Assembly: GCF_014193585.1 (NCBI RefSeq)
Contig: NZ_BLXY01000010.1
Coordinates: forward strand, 1-64,000
Source: Geomonas paludis
GTDB lineage: Bacteria; Desulfobacterota; Desulfuromonadia; Geobacterales; Geobacteraceae
Length of the DNA: 64,000 nucleotides
Direction: 5' to 3'
Part shown: one piece after another, positions 27,082-62,356 of the stretch
Layout: each line of letters starts with the position of its first letter
How positions within the stretch are numbered: the stretch's first letter is position 1
Notes under the pieces: generated by a model
Databases searched by the model: none
What the model saw: the letters and a program-made list of their open reading frames with translations, nothing else
What the model was told of the DNA's origin: nothing
Made by a program: the position numbers and the translations under genes

Positions 27082-27257
27082 CCTGATTAGCGATGATCTT
27101 CCGCCAAGATGCCCATCCCCCTCTCCCTCCGGGAGAGGGGTGGGGTGAGGGCGCTGCAATAGGCAATGGTCCCGTTTCGTGGCACCTCCCTCACCCGCCC
27201 TGCGGGCACCCTCTCCCGGAGGGAGAGGGCATTAGCGGAAGATTGTGGCTAATTAGG
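27082..27257. repeat. REPIN/MITE-like repeat, full copy (subtype 2)
   Basis: Left end CCTGATTAGCGATGATCTTC, right end GAAGATTGTGGCTAATTAGG (inverted match). Interior has CCCTCTCCCTCCGGGAGAGG, then GCTGCAATAGGCAATGGTCC and the opposing hairpin. Nearly the same interior as copies 48461 and (reversed) 54631. It lies inside the bio operon between bioH and bioC. Confidence 0.85.
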
Positions 27258-27282
27258 TTAATTTTTAATTGAGAAGGTATAG

Positions 27283-28101
27283 ATGGCGGCAGAGATAGAC
27301 AGAGACAAGGTGCGCGAGTCCTTCCACCGGCAGGCAACCGATTACGACCGGCATGCCGTGGTGCAGGGGCGCGTGGTGGACAAGGTGCTCGCGCTGTTGC
27401 AGGCGGAGCAGGTGGCGCCTGCGTCCCTGCTCGATATCGGTGCCGGGACCGGGAGGCTGCTGGCGCGGCTGACCGGGCTTTACCCGGAGATGGATGCCGT
27501 CGGCGCGGATCTCGCGCCGGGAATGTGCGAGGCCGCCGCCCGCAACCTGGCCGGCAGGCGGGTGCGGATGGTGAACGCCGACGCCGAGTCGCTTCCCTTC
27601 GACGCGGAAAGCTTCGACGTGGTGGTCTCCACCTCCACCTATCAATGGCTGGCCACCTTGGATCAGGCCTTTGCCGAGGCGCGGCGGGTCCTCAAGCCGG
27701 GCGGGGTGTTCTGCTTTGCCCTCTTCGGGGAGCGCACGCTGTTCGAGTTGCGGGAGTCGTACCGGGCGGTGCTGGAAGGGGGCGCCGACCGCACCCACAG
27801 CTTCTTTGCCGCCGCCGAGGTGTCGGCTGCGCTGGAGCGGGTGGGGTTCTGCGGGCCGCGGGTCAGCTCGGAGCTTGAGGTGGAAATGCACCCGGACGTG
27901 CCGGAGTTGTTGCGGTCTTTGAAGAAGATCGGGGCGGGGAGCACGGCGCCGGCCAGCGGCAAGGGGCTTTCCGAGCGGCGGGTGATGTTGGAGATGATGG
28001 CGAGCTACCGCAAGAGGTTCGGCAGGGAGGATGGCGTGCCGGCAACCTACGAAGTGGTGTACGGGGTGGCGCGGAAGAAAGGGCGGTCGGAGTCGGACTA
28101 G
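27283..28101 (+). CDS. bioC: Malonyl-ACP O-methyltransferase
   Basis: SAM-dependent enzyme that methylates malonyl-ACP so fatty-acid synthesis can build the pimelate chain. Product of 272 aa; class I methyltransferase motif I LLDIGAGTGRLLARL, an acidic residue in AVGADLAPGM, and the BioC-type start VRESFHRQATDYDRHAVVQ. GAGAAGG precedes the ATG. With bioF and bioH it completes the early BioC-BioH route; bioA, bioD and bioB are not in the window. Confidence 0.9.
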   Translation: MAAEIDRDKVRESFHRQATDYDRHAVVQGRVVDKVLALLQAEQVAPASLLDIGAGTGRLLARLTGLYPEMDAVGADLAPGMCEAAARNLAGRRVRMVNADAESLPFDAESFDVVVSTSTYQWLATLDQAFAEARRVLKPGGVFCFALFGERTLFELRESYRAVLEGGADRTHSFFAAAEVSAALERVGFCGPRVSSELEVEMHPDVPELLRSLKKIGAGSTAPASGKGLSERRVMLEMMASYRKRFGREDGVPATYEVVYGVARKKGRSESD

Positions 28102-28120
28102 TCGGATCGGTCAGAAAAAA

Positions 28121-28292
28121 CCGATTAGGCATGATCTTCCGCCAAATGCTTCTACATCCCCTCTCCCTCCGGGAGAGGGCTAGGGTGAGGGTGTTGCCCG
28201 GAGCAGATTATCTGAGCCGGTAGAGCCCTCACCCGCCCTTCGGGCACCCTCTCCCAGAGGGAGAGGGACTAGGGGGAGATTGTCACTAATCC
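28121..28292. repeat. REPIN/MITE-like repeat, full copy (subtype 1)
   Basis: Left end CCGATTAGGCATGATCTTCC; right end GGAGATTGTCACTAATCC. Interior near-identical to the copy at 10498, including GAGCAGATTATCTGAGCCGG. It separates bioC from the convergent ettA terminator. Confidence 0.85.
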
Positions 28293-38111: not shown

Positions 38112-38116
38112 CACCC

Positions 38117-38313
38117 GTTCAACGTTCAACGTTCGACGTTAAGACCCTCCCCCCTTGCCAAAGGGGGGCAGAGGCTGCAGCCGCGCAGTGATGCGGCGCA
38201 GTCCTCCTGCCCTCGCGAGCTCGGGGGAATTGTCATTTTTGAGAGGCGACACGTCGAACTGAACGCTGTATAGCGGCACCCACTTTACGAACGTTGAACA
38301 TTGAACGTTGAAC
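38117..38313. repeat. Inverted-repeat cassette without a gene (GTTCAACGTT family)
   Basis: Left arm GTTCAACGTTCAACGTTCGA continuing to CGTT (38117-38140) pairs with the 24-base right arm (38290-38313), 22 of 24 positions. The ~150-base interior includes a CCCCCCTTG/AAGGGGGG hairpin and no plausible frame. It starts five bases after the skp stop codon and ends just before the lpxD ribosome site. The same arms bound the four-helix-bundle gene at 60352-60879. Confidence 0.8.
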
Positions 38314-38330
38314 GTTTTTTTGAGGTTCGC

Positions 38331-59230: not shown

Positions 59231-59324
59231 CCCTCTCCCTCCGGGAGAGGGTGCCCGGAGGGCGGGTGAGGGCTTTTTGAAGCTGGCATGCCCTCACCCT
59301 AACCCTCTCCCGGAGGGAGAGGGG
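59231..59324. repeat. REP-like paired hairpins (core only)
   Basis: CCCTCTCCCTCCGGGAGAGG, GTGCCCGGAGGGCGGGTGAG, and the mirror CCCTCACCCTAACCCTCTCC with CGGAGGGAGAGGGG. The outer GATTAG/CTAATC ends of the full copies are missing. Confidence 0.75.
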
Positions 59325-59406: not shown

Positions 59407-60351
59407 GTGAAATACCGGCCACTCGATTTTTCTGGTGTCAGCACCTACCCGATAGCATCCCGTAAAAACAAGATGAACGTGCAGGAGCACTTCGCCAAAC
59501 CGGTCAGGTCCGGCATGACCGTAGCCGAGCTCCTGGCCGCCATGCCCGACCAACTCGGCTCGCAGGCATTGAACGGCGTCATCGATGCCGTCGTTGCCGC
59601 CCGCGCCAAGGGGAAGCCCGTGGTCATGGCCATGGGGGGGCACGTCATCAAGTGCGGCCTGCAACCGGTGCTCAAATCCCTCATCGATGCCGACGTGATC
59701 ACCGCCGTGGCGCTGAACGGCTCCGGTTCCATCCATGACTTCGAGATCGCCCTCATCGGCGCCACCAGCGAGGACGTCGGAGCCGTGCTCCACGCCGGCA
59801 GCTTCGGCATGGCCGAGGAGACCGGCGCCCAGATCAACGAGGCGCTGAAGCAGGGGGTCGCGCAGGGGCTCGGGCACGGCGAGTCATTGGGGCGGATGAT
59901 CCTGGAGCGCGAGTTGCCCTATCGCGAGCAGAGCCTGATGGCCGCGTGCGTGCAGAAGGGGATCCCGGTCACCGTGCATGTCGCCATAGGCACCGACATC
60001 ACCCATCAGCATCCCTCCGCCGACGGCGCCGTGTTCGGGGCCGCCAGTTTCACCGACTTCCAGATCTTCACCTCAGTCGTCTCCGAGCTCGGTGACGGCG
60101 GCGTCTATCTCAACATCGGCAGCGCGGTATTGTTGCCCGAAGTGTTCCTGAAGGCCCTTTCCATAGCGCAGAACCTGGGGCACCACGTCGACCGGTTCAC
60201 CACCGCCAATTTCGACATGCAGCAGCATTACCGGCCGTTGGTCAACGTCGTCAAGCGCCCCACCTCCGGCGCCAGCCGCGGGTACACCGTCACCGGCCAC
60301 CACGAGATCATGCTGCCGCTGTTGGCGGCAGGCATTTTGGATAGAATCTAA
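59407..60351 (+). CDS. Deoxyhypusine-synthase-like protein of unknown function
   Basis: Product of 314 aa, cytoplasmic. Notable segments: VVMAMGGHVIKCGLQPVLKS, TAVALNGSGSIHDFEIALIG, GIPVTVHVAIGTDITHQHPS and a C-terminal TGHHEIMLPLLAAG. The pattern recalls the NAD-binding fold of deoxyhypusine synthases, but I see no eIF5A-like target and bacterial relatives have diverse or unknown roles. GTG start at 59407 with AAAGGAT ahead. Placed next to hldE, so a role in heptose or surface-sugar metabolism is possible. Confidence 0.55.
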   Translation: MKYRPLDFSGVSTYPIASRKNKMNVQEHFAKPVRSGMTVAELLAAMPDQLGSQALNGVIDAVVAARAKGKPVVMAMGGHVIKCGLQPVLKSLIDADVITAVALNGSGSIHDFEIALIGATSEDVGAVLHAGSFGMAEETGAQINEALKQGVAQGLGHGESLGRMILERELPYREQSLMAACVQKGIPVTVHVAIGTDITHQHPSADGAVFGAASFTDFQIFTSVVSELGDGGVYLNIGSAVLLPEVFLKALSIAQNLGHHVDRFTTANFDMQQHYRPLVNVVKRPTSGASRGYTVTGHHEIMLPLLAAGILDRI

Positions 60352-60879
60352 GCCGTTCAATGTTCAACGTTCGACGTTAACTTCTACACTGCTTTACCTG
60401 TACCGGAGGTGGCGACGTGAGAATACAGCGGTTCGAAGATGTTGATTCGTGGAAAGAAGCACGGCTGTTGGTACGCGAAATCTATCTGCATCTTGGCGGG
60501 TGCAGGGACTACGGATTTCGCGACCAGATTCAAAGAGCTGCCGTTTCGGTGATGTCCAACATTGCAGAAGGCTTTGATCGAGGCAGTAACAAAGAGTTTG
60601 TTCAATATCTCATTATCTCTCGTGGCTCTCTCTCAGAAGTCAAAAGCCTAGCGTATGCCGGACTCGACATCGGAGATCTTGATCAAAAGAACTTCGAGGC
60701 AGTGATGAAGCGCTGCAACAGAATAAGCAATATCCTAAACGGGTTCATCAGGTTCTTGAAGAGCAGCCAGCGCAAGGCCTAGGATTGGCATTGCCGGTTT
60801 TTCAATGGTACAACGTATTTTGCAGTAAAACTTTAGCCAGAGATGCCGATTGAACATTGAACGTTGAACGTTGAACGGC
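60352..60879. mobile_element. Inverted-repeat cassette carrying a four-helix-bundle gene
   Basis: Left arm (60352-60378) GCCGTTCAATGTTCAACGTT then CGACGTT; right arm (60853-60879) is its inverted match, 24 of 27 positions. The left arm begins at the first base after the stop codon of the upstream gene and the right arm ends immediately before the TTTAGGAG ribosome site of hldE. The interior is AT-richer than the flanks and holds one gene. The same arms without a gene occur at 38117-38313. Mobility is inferred, not shown. Confidence 0.65.
60417..60782 (+). CDS. Four-helix-bundle protein (23S rRNA intervening-sequence family)
   Basis: Product of 121 aa, all-helical. FEDVDSWKEARLLVREIYLH, then FRDQIQRAAVSVMSNIAEGF and SRGSLSEVKS are diagnostic of the bIVP/S23 four-helix-bundle family, first found in insertions inside 23S rRNA genes and related in fold to the Avd proteins of diversity-generating retroelements. 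Forms pentamers in known structures; molecular role unknown. GTG start at 60417 after GGAGGT. Codon use is clearly more A/T-ended than in all neighbours, a sign of separate origin. Sits inside the inverted-repeat cassette. Confidence 0.88.
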   Translation: MRIQRFEDVDSWKEARLLVREIYLHLGGCRDYGFRDQIQRAAVSVMSNIAEGFDRGSNKEFVQYLIISRGSLSEVKSLAYAGLDIGDLDQKNFEAVMKRCNRISNILNGFIRFLKSSQRKA

Positions 60880-60892
60880 TTTAGGAGACTGC

Positions 60893-62356
60893 ATGGATCG
60901 TAGAGAAGTAGAATCCCTTTTCGAACGCGCCGCCACCGTGCGCGCCCTGGTGGTGGGCGACCTGATGCTGGACGAATACCTGTGGGGGCGGGCGGAACGG
61001 ATCTCGCCGGAGGCGCCGGTACAGGTGGTCGAGGTGGCGCGCGAGGACCTGCGCCTGGGGGGCGCGGGCAACGTGGTCAATAACCTCGCCGCCCTCGGCT
61101 GCCGGGTCTCGGTTGGCTCGGTCATCGGCACGGACGAAGACGGCCAACTCCTGCGCCACGCCCTGGTGGAGAAGGGCGCCGGGGTGGACGGCCTGGTCGA
61201 GGACCCGCAGCGCACCACCAGCAAGAAGACGCGCGTCATCGCGGCCAACCAGCAGATCGTCCGCATCGATCGGGAGATGCGCTCCTCGATCGGCGCCGCC
61301 AGCGAAAAGGCGCTGCTCGATTACCTCCTCACCCGTCTCTCCGAGTTCGACGTGGTGGTGGTCTCGGACTACCTGAAGGGCGTGCTGACCCCGGCGCTGC
61401 TCGACGCGCTCTGCCGCAAGGGGCGCGAACTGGGCGTGCCGGTGGTGGTCGACCCCAAGGGGGATGACTTCGCCAAGTACCGCGGCGCCACGGTGCTCAC
61501 CCCCAACCGCAAGGAGGCGGAGGTCGCCTCGGGGACCGCCATCACCGACCAGGCCTCCCTGGAAGTGGCGGCCGGCAAGATCCTCTCCAACCTGGAACTG
61601 GACGCGCTCCTCATCACCCGCAGCGAGGCGGGCATGTCGCTCTTCCCGGCACAGGGGGAGGCGGTGCACATCCCGACCGTGGCCCGCGAGGTGTTCGACG
61701 TCACCGGCGCCGGCGATACCGTGATCTCGGTCCTCTCCCTGGGGCTTGCCTGCGGGCTCACCCTGGCGGACGCAGCCTGGGTGGCCAACGTGGCCGCCGG
61801 CATCGTGGTCGGCAAGCTGGGCACCTCCACGGTCTCGCCGCGCGAGATCATCGCGGAGGTCGGGCACTCCCTGCGCGACAGCGACTCGAAGATCAAGAAC
61901 CTCGACGTCCTGGCCCACCTGGTGGCCCGGGAGCGCGCCCGCGGTAAAAAGGTGGTCTTCACTAACGGCTGCTTTGACCTCTTGCACGTGGGGCACGTGA
62001 AGTACCTGCAGAAGGCGCGGGAGTTGGGCGACCTCCTGGTGGTGGGGCTCAACACCGACGACTCGGTGCGCCGGCTCAAGGGGGAGGGGAGGCCGCTCAT
62101 CGAGGAGACGGAACGGGCCCACATCCTGGCGGCCCTGGGGTGCGTGGACTACGTGGCGCTCTTCGACGAGGACACCCCGCTCAGGCTCATCGAAGCGCTG
62201 CGCCCGTCCATCCTGGTCAAGGGGGGGGACTACAGCATCGACCAGGTGGTGGGGCGCGAACTGGTCGAATCGATGGGGGGACGGGTCGAGCTGATCGAGT
62301 TCGTCGACGGCCGTTCCACCAGCCGCATCATCGACAAGATCCTCTCTTCCAAATAA
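60893..62356 (+). CDS. hldE: Bifunctional D-beta-heptose-7-phosphate kinase / heptose-1-phosphate adenylyltransferase
   Basis: Product of 487 aa. N-terminal PfkB/ribokinase domain ([34 protein letters not shown], and catalytic [17 protein letters not shown] near 270). C-terminal cytidylyltransferase-like domain with [20 protein letters not shown]. Makes ADP-D-beta-D-heptose for the LPS inner core. TAGGAG precedes the ATG. gmhA and gmhB are not in the window. Upstream lies the inverted-repeat cassette. Confidence 0.96.

Follow-up and report, generated by a model that had tools for sequence, protein, structure and literature searches.

Inverted arms of tandem heptads around S23 genes, a possible family of small mobile elements in bacteria

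S23 proteins are common, and their role is so far not known. One of their genes lies in the DNA analysed here, the first 64,000 nucleotides of contig NZ_BLXY01000010.1 from Geomonas paludis (the window), where it is found between a gene of the GSU2086 family and hldE, and not inside a 23S rRNA gene (Table 1). It is the single gene of a cassette bounded by two inverted arms. Such arms accompany S23 genes in many lineages, and their sequence follows that of the protein.

The original prediction for this locus, made from the DNA letters alone, described 27-base inverted arms around one gene of deviating base composition. The arms are complementary at 24/27 positions (26/29 when extended to 60350-60378 and 60853-60881), and the inverted-repeat score of the cassette is 43, against a maximum of 36 among 2000 Markov shuffles of the same flanks. 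Both arms consist of tandem heptads, with the unit TTGAACG in the right arm and its complement in the left, a feature which the prediction had missed. It was correct in its boundaries: the left arm begins at the very next base after the upstream stop codon (TAA, 60349-60351), and the right arm ends shortly before the Shine-Dalgarno sequence of hldE. The composition is also as claimed, with a G+C content of 47% in the cassette versus 64% and 68% in the two adjoining genes, below every one of 240 half-overlapping 530-nt tiles of the window. Terminal inverted repeats are likewise seen in miniature inverted-repeat transposable elements (MITEs) and insertion sequences. The cassette contains no second sense-strand open reading frame (ORF) of at least 60 amino acids, and hence no reverse transcriptase. 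An equally high inverted-repeat score occurs at one other spot among 630 window tiles, near 27200, which is a different repeat, palindromic and C/G-rich. A palindromic repeat, CCCTCTCCC..., is present at 59231-59323 and 27209-28267, and its 22-nt arms at 59231-59323 are fully complementary.

Table 1. Positions of the cassette, its neighbours and a related gene-less element in the window
Feature	Position	Strand	Remarks
Left arm	60352..60378	+	tandem heptads read as CGTTCAA (GTTCAAC)
Shine-Dalgarno-like GGAGGT for the S23 gene, within the cassette	60405..60410	+	from sequence
S23 / 23S_rRNA_IVP four-helix-bundle gene	60417..60782	+	121 aa, GTG start; PF05635 101.5 bits (cut-off 33.8), TIGR02436 94.5 bits (cut-off 24)
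Right arm	60853..60879	+	tandem heptads TTGAACG; heptad run proper 60850-60877
Upstream gene, GSU2086 family protein	59407..60351	+	NF052581 434 bits; stop codon abuts left arm
Downstream gene hldE	60893..62356	+	NF008454 534 bits; Shine-Dalgarno AGGAG 60883-60887
Gene-less element with the same heptad arms (38116-38136, 38294-38314)	38116..38314	.	4 nt past a stop codon, between another gene pair; strand unassigned

Arms were searched for from 350 nt upstream to 350 nt downstream of each S23 gene, with a score of at least 30 as the threshold for strong inverted arms. The family set comprised 86 matches of at least 56 bits, 83 of which were scored (G045:C438:927 and G002:C167, both near contig ends, and a fragment in G047 were dropped). 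The phylum set was the best 80 of at least 582 relatives found with one peptide pattern and leans to typical S23 proteins; it spans about 20 phylum-level lineages, as counted from record titles, and 79 loci were scored as one (L203) ran off its contig. Thirty cyanobacterial loci were added, of which 29 were scored (L289 was not scorable). A broken S23 copy (L118) was left unscored, and L170 and L294 are the same gene, giving one duplicate among 191 loci.

Strong inverted arms were found at 152/191 S23 loci, compared with 0/1910 shuffles and 1/183 shifted flanks. In the family the count was 73/83 (shuffles 0/830, flanks shifted 500 nt outward 0/79), in the phylum set 61/79 (shuffles 0/790, shifted flanks 0/75) and in cyanobacteria 18/29 (shuffles 0/290, shifted flanks 1/29). 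An archaeal locus (L211) scored 29. Other ORFs of the same loci reached the threshold in 1/85, 2/139 and 1/17 cases respectively, with S23-like regions excluded from this control for the family and cyanobacterial sets and retained for the phylum set; before their removal the counts were 6/102 (family) and 2/20 (cyanobacteria). As heptads are shared between unrelated genomes, a null with swapped flanks was heavy-tailed (99th percentile 46, maximum 61), and shuffles and shifted flanks were used instead. The host range is wide, with a PF05635 match at E <= 0.001 in 44/48 family genomes (above cut-off in 41/48) and a match in 22/59 cyanobacterial genomes. No Rfam family was found at the gathering threshold in 19 loci with arms or S23, and we found no report linking intergenic S23 genes to heptad arms in a literature search that covered few subscription journals. 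A second type of S23 protein, recognised by eye around GTSIGANVEEA, also has arms of at least 30 (L101, L103, L104, L106-L111, L113-L117).

Further properties of the arms were studied in elements scoring at least 28; L042, L059 and L061 are included in the family counts above and were left out of the period, mismatch, correlation and placement analyses. A repeat period of 7 or 14 fits best in 55/70 family and 46/64 phylum elements, and one of 6, 8, 9 or longer in the others. The repeat unit mostly differs between elements and is common to both arms of one element.

Arm similarity increases with S23 identity across 134 elements (Mantel r 0.36, p 0.0005), averaging 0.78 at S23 identities of at least 80% and 0.17-0.20 in every bin below 50%. 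It tracks the protein and not the host genome: in 51 same-genome pairs with S23 identity below 50% it lies at background (0.17), and in 7 same-genome pairs above 50% it ranges from 0.11 to 0.56. The 64 multi-phylum elements alone give r 0.17 (p 0.0002) for arms in gene-sense orientation; in antisense orientation the correlation in these elements is not significant. Two S23 proteins with approximately 91% identity and like arms (L180 and L183) are in metagenome-assembled genomes labelled Chloroflexi and Bacteroidetes, reflecting either recent transfer or mis-binning.

The two arms of one element change together. At the hldE site, 13 loci have scored arms (10 congeners and 3 members of another genus), of types TTGAACG (8), TAGAACG (4; G024, G025, G030, G032) and TCGAACG (1; G033). 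Left and right arms have a similarity of 0.83 within a locus, whereas between loci of unlike heptad type (44 pairs) left arms compare at 0.51 and right arms at 0.47. Arm identity in general is 0.897, as against 0.852 expected from independent draws from the heptad pool, and is higher than expected in 49/75 elements (p 1e-4), which favours copying between arms at the DNA level. Pairing in RNA as the keeper of this likeness finds no support: mismatches of the G-U type are not in excess over those of the A-C type (81 vs 93 in the family, 81 vs 69 in the phyla), and the arms thus show no visible sign of being kept alike through RNA.

Placement, for which the figures rest on a crude ORF caller, is at the 3' ends of genes. 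Both neighbours are co-directional with S23 in 32/47 family and 32/49 phylum loci having both called. Downstream of a co-directional gene, the left arm begins no more than 20 nt past the stop codon in 41/51 family and 35/44 phylum loci, at a median distance of 4 nt; the contact between stop codon and arm seen in the window is therefore usual. The claim that insertion leaves coding intact holds in most cases, but at one site described below the last codons of the upstream gene appear to have been replaced. Gene-less heptad elements of the G. paludis genome are placed similarly: both neighbours were called for 20 of the 21 places read, and of these 15 lie between co-directional genes, 5 between convergent genes and none between divergent genes.

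Such siting would suit an element that acts at the RNA level, whose arms would pair once transcribed with the operon and be cut by RNase III, with S23 acting on this RNA. The co-directional neighbours, the short distance past the upstream stop and the lack of gene-less copies in divergent gene pairs (0/20) all agree with this, as does a published S23-bearing 23S element with tandem heptamers that is excised by RNase III (PMC4990558). However, selection for pairing should give an excess of G-U mismatches, which is not seen, and the same placement can also stem from selection against harm and for S23 expression. We consider an RNA-level element unlikely. The original prediction had left the choice between a small mobile and an RNA-level element open; its mobile half is supported, since congeners differ in having or lacking the element at given sites between genes, while no support was found for RNA pairing as the source of the likeness of the arms.

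This variation was followed among 19 congeners. The slot upstream of hldE has an S23 cassette in 11 of them, with the gene frameshifted in G012, G017 and G021, and a bare spacer of 60-153 nt in four. In G022 (L128) it holds a gene-less inverted element with CACAGAGGAA-type repeats, and in G013, G016 and G028 another gene with palindromes takes the place of S23. Compared with the Y1_Tnp profile, the gene of G016 scores 25.6 bits (cut-off 23), and those of the other two congeners were likened to it by sequence. A Y1-transposase-like gene with GGGGCGAATAATCATTCGCCCC palindromes lies at 2474-3301 in L121, with similar arrangements in L122 and L125, in a slot which holds S23 in relatives. Three members of another genus also have a cassette upstream of hldE, and S23 genes of the hldE-site clade occur at four or more other sites. 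Of the two observations that were named as refuting the original prediction, one was made, in that arms are also numerous without the gene; the other was not, as relatives with the gene at this locus do have arms.

At a second site, an S23 cassette with GGGRCTA arms is complete in G012, G021, G022 and G023. G028 carries an internally deleted derivative there, in which both arms remain and 40 nt of the S23 gene are left, and no S23 match was found at this site in the other 14 congeners, G024 having such an S23 approximately 2 kb away. It is here that the upstream gene seems to have lost its last codons to the element, with a heptad supplying the TAG stop. A third site, examined by eye, has an S23 with hexamer arms in G000, G014, G015, G016 and G025, an apparent arm relic in G011, G012, G013 and G028, and a one-sided repeat in G019 and G024; the other eight congeners have neither element nor repeat remnant. 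The junction at 38116 has an insert in 18/19 congeners, and a single base between stop and start in G026. Its arms, classed by eye, are of TTGAACG type in eight congeners and TAGAACG or mixed in another six; those of G014, G015 and G022 are degenerate, and the two of G019 are unlike (GGGRCTA on the left, TAGAACG-like on the right). Since the core at this junction is similar to a different common repeat, the inserts may not all be orthologous.

An insert so widely shared could have been domesticated by the host, with arm pairs serving as mRNA stabilisers, attenuators or terminators and S23 merely riding in some of them. The position of gene-less arm elements at gene 3' ends fits with this as well, but the arms of S23 genes in many lineages, the way in which arm sequence follows the S23 protein and the site variation among congeners are left unexplained, and this reading is improbable.

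The heptads are also dispersed in the genome. A 17-nt arm piece has 140 matches in G. paludis with up to one mismatch (59 forward, 81 reverse), and the reversed-motif control has none. Thirty of these loci, representing 21 distinct places, were read: 17 are inverted pairs CGTTCAA...TTGAACG of 108-282 nt with no S23 gene, and 4 are single arms. The element at 38116-38314 (Table 1) is a further one of this kind. The second full-length S23 gene of this genome has different arms of a degenerate hexamer, GATTAA, with a score of 26, below the threshold. Among congeners, TTGAACG has 31-167 matches in the nine with TTGAACG arms at the hldE site. G022, where similar arms are found elsewhere, has 15, and congeners lacking such an S23 have 0-12; the exception is G025 (78 matches), whose hldE arms are TAGAACG. 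In the verrucomicrobial genome of L202, the heptad of its own S23 has 134 matches with up to 3 mismatches and none for the reversed control; the other 14 genomes searched in this manner have 0-16 matches, and the highest of these has a control of 12.

Together, these observations may be explained by a family of small mobile DNA elements in which S23 recognises its own arms, an explanation that we regard, taken whole and with its mechanism, as about evenly balanced between right and wrong. Each element would be a single S23 gene between two inverted arms of tandem units of about seven nucleotides. We infer that the S23 protein most likely binds heptad arms of its own lineage and, with replication or repair enzymes of the host, could move or copy the DNA that the arms enclose. 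Gene-less derivatives, having lost S23 through internal deletion, would be mobilised as well, in trans, and the arms would be kept alike at the DNA level, probably as one arm is copied from the other. A wider proposal is more tentative: S23 may mark a widespread class of bacterial mobile elements whose self-complementary heptads are private to each lineage and whose arms are rewritten together, with the intervening sequences of 23S rRNA as a special case.

Several points weigh against mobility driven by S23. A catalytic domain is not recognised in the protein. Cis linkage of protein and arms could by itself yield part of the Mantel signal, and between the family and phylum sets the correlation of protein and arms is not significant (r 0.05, p 0.27). 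A single clade for the hldE cassette is not rejected (p-AU 0.335, with a poorly resolved tree), and this cassette looks old and mostly vertically inherited. Comparison by eye of occupied and unoccupied sites at three loci, where the flanks have diverged, gave no clear target-site duplication. Finally, TAGAACG and GGGRCTA are abundant in congeners with no cognate S23 (105 GGGRCTA matches in G019, 109 TAGAACG matches in G013), and heptads can therefore persist in a genome that lacks their S23; outside the genus, the reversed control for GGGRCTA also yields matches (22 in G008). A rule tying heptad copies to the presence of a cognate S23 fails for these two heptads.

This persistence would also be expected of passive repeats, where heptad palindromes arise and are maintained at tolerant sites by slippage and fold-back template switching, with S23 as unrelated cargo. 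The excess of arm likeness over draws from the pool is what copying from arm to arm would give, and there is no RNA signature. The association with S23 argues against it, given that other ORFs of the same loci seldom have arms, and we find passive repeats improbable.

The mobile elements proposed here resemble several known systems. Repetitive extragenic palindromic (REP) sequences and their associated tyrosine transposases (RAYT), the REPIN class, consist of short repeats scattered as inverted pairs, together with a gene copy that has these repeats on both sides. S23 is likewise flanked by repeats that are dispersed as inverted pairs, and a gene of the RAYT kind, with palindromes, occupies the hldE slot in 3/19 congeners (with a Y1_Tnp profile match in one); unlike RAYTs, S23 has no Y1 transposase match, and its arms are tandem heptads and not single palindromes. 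As in MITEs, gene-less derivatives keep the terminal inverted repeats of the parent, one of them being an internally deleted S23 cassette, but the parent has no recognised transposase, there is no clear target-site duplication and the ends are made of tandem repeats. The fold of the S23 family is related to that of Avd, the accessory protein of diversity-generating retroelements, from which the cassette differs in having no other sense ORF of at least 60 amino acids that could be a reverse transcriptase. Short tandemly repeated repetitive (STRR) sequences of cyanobacteria are dispersed heptanucleotide repeats. In Beggiatoaceae, TAACTGA direct repeats also form dispersed tandem heptads, mostly intergenic (PMC4679880); the main text of that paper has neither 'S23' nor 'four helix'. 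Neither of these repeats is linked to S23 here. Cyanobacterial S23 genes do have arms.

The intervening sequences of 23S rRNA genes are also close, and the elements are best read as kin of those that bear an ORF. In Coxiella, the S23 ORF follows tandem heptamers whose number varies among strains, and the intervening sequence is cut by RNase III (PMC4990558). This supports the link to 23S rRNA insertions made in the original prediction, and older proposals cited in the same paper hold that such ORFs serve mobility (PMC4990558). The protein family, the inverted-repeat ends, the one sense ORF and, in this published case, the tandem heptamers are shared (PMC4990558). In contrast, the cassette lies between protein genes, heptads vary between elements, and gene-less copies are dispersed. 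'23S rRNA IVP' is also among the names in a figure legend about CRISPR array-associated proteins (PMC10910872).

The association with S23 points to an overlooked kind of small mobile element, and the puzzle of the 23S rRNA intervening sequences is placed in a wider class. S23 heptad elements offer an origin for some of the dispersed short-tandem hairpins in bacterial genomes, and arms that change together yet differ between elements lend themselves to the study of how inverted repeats keep their likeness. For the S23 proteins, the constant company of heptad arms provides a testable partner.

The S23 protein of the window has PF05635 as its sole Pfam match at E <= 0.001, with no match to Y1 transposases, and no match in PADLOC or PHROGs at E <= 0.01. 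Among intact orthologues at the hldE site, 4/45 pairs have a synonymous divergence (dS) below 1, and in these the ratio of nonsynonymous to synonymous divergence (dN/dS) is 0.05-0.18; one further pair (dS 3.5) has a dN/dS of 0.03, and the remaining pairs are dS-saturated. In an alignment of 157 sequences from both S23 subfamilies, E51 is present in 154/154 rows with a letter, E74 in 153, Q37 in 151, S44 and N48 in 150 and R40 in 145, conservation which would be striking for a mere scaffold. The only solved structure among S23 relatives at E <= 0.1 is 2gsc, and the S23 structure of X. campestris has been described as a toroidal pentamer (PMC4990558). Decayed copies may not be rare, as 5/80 multi-phylum matches (L143, L145, L173, L191 and L197) contain an in-frame stop or have a length that is not a multiple of three. 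In G033 (C1 4460462-4471231), G045 (C438) and G034 (C30), S23 genes are clustered, with two or three of them within a few kb.
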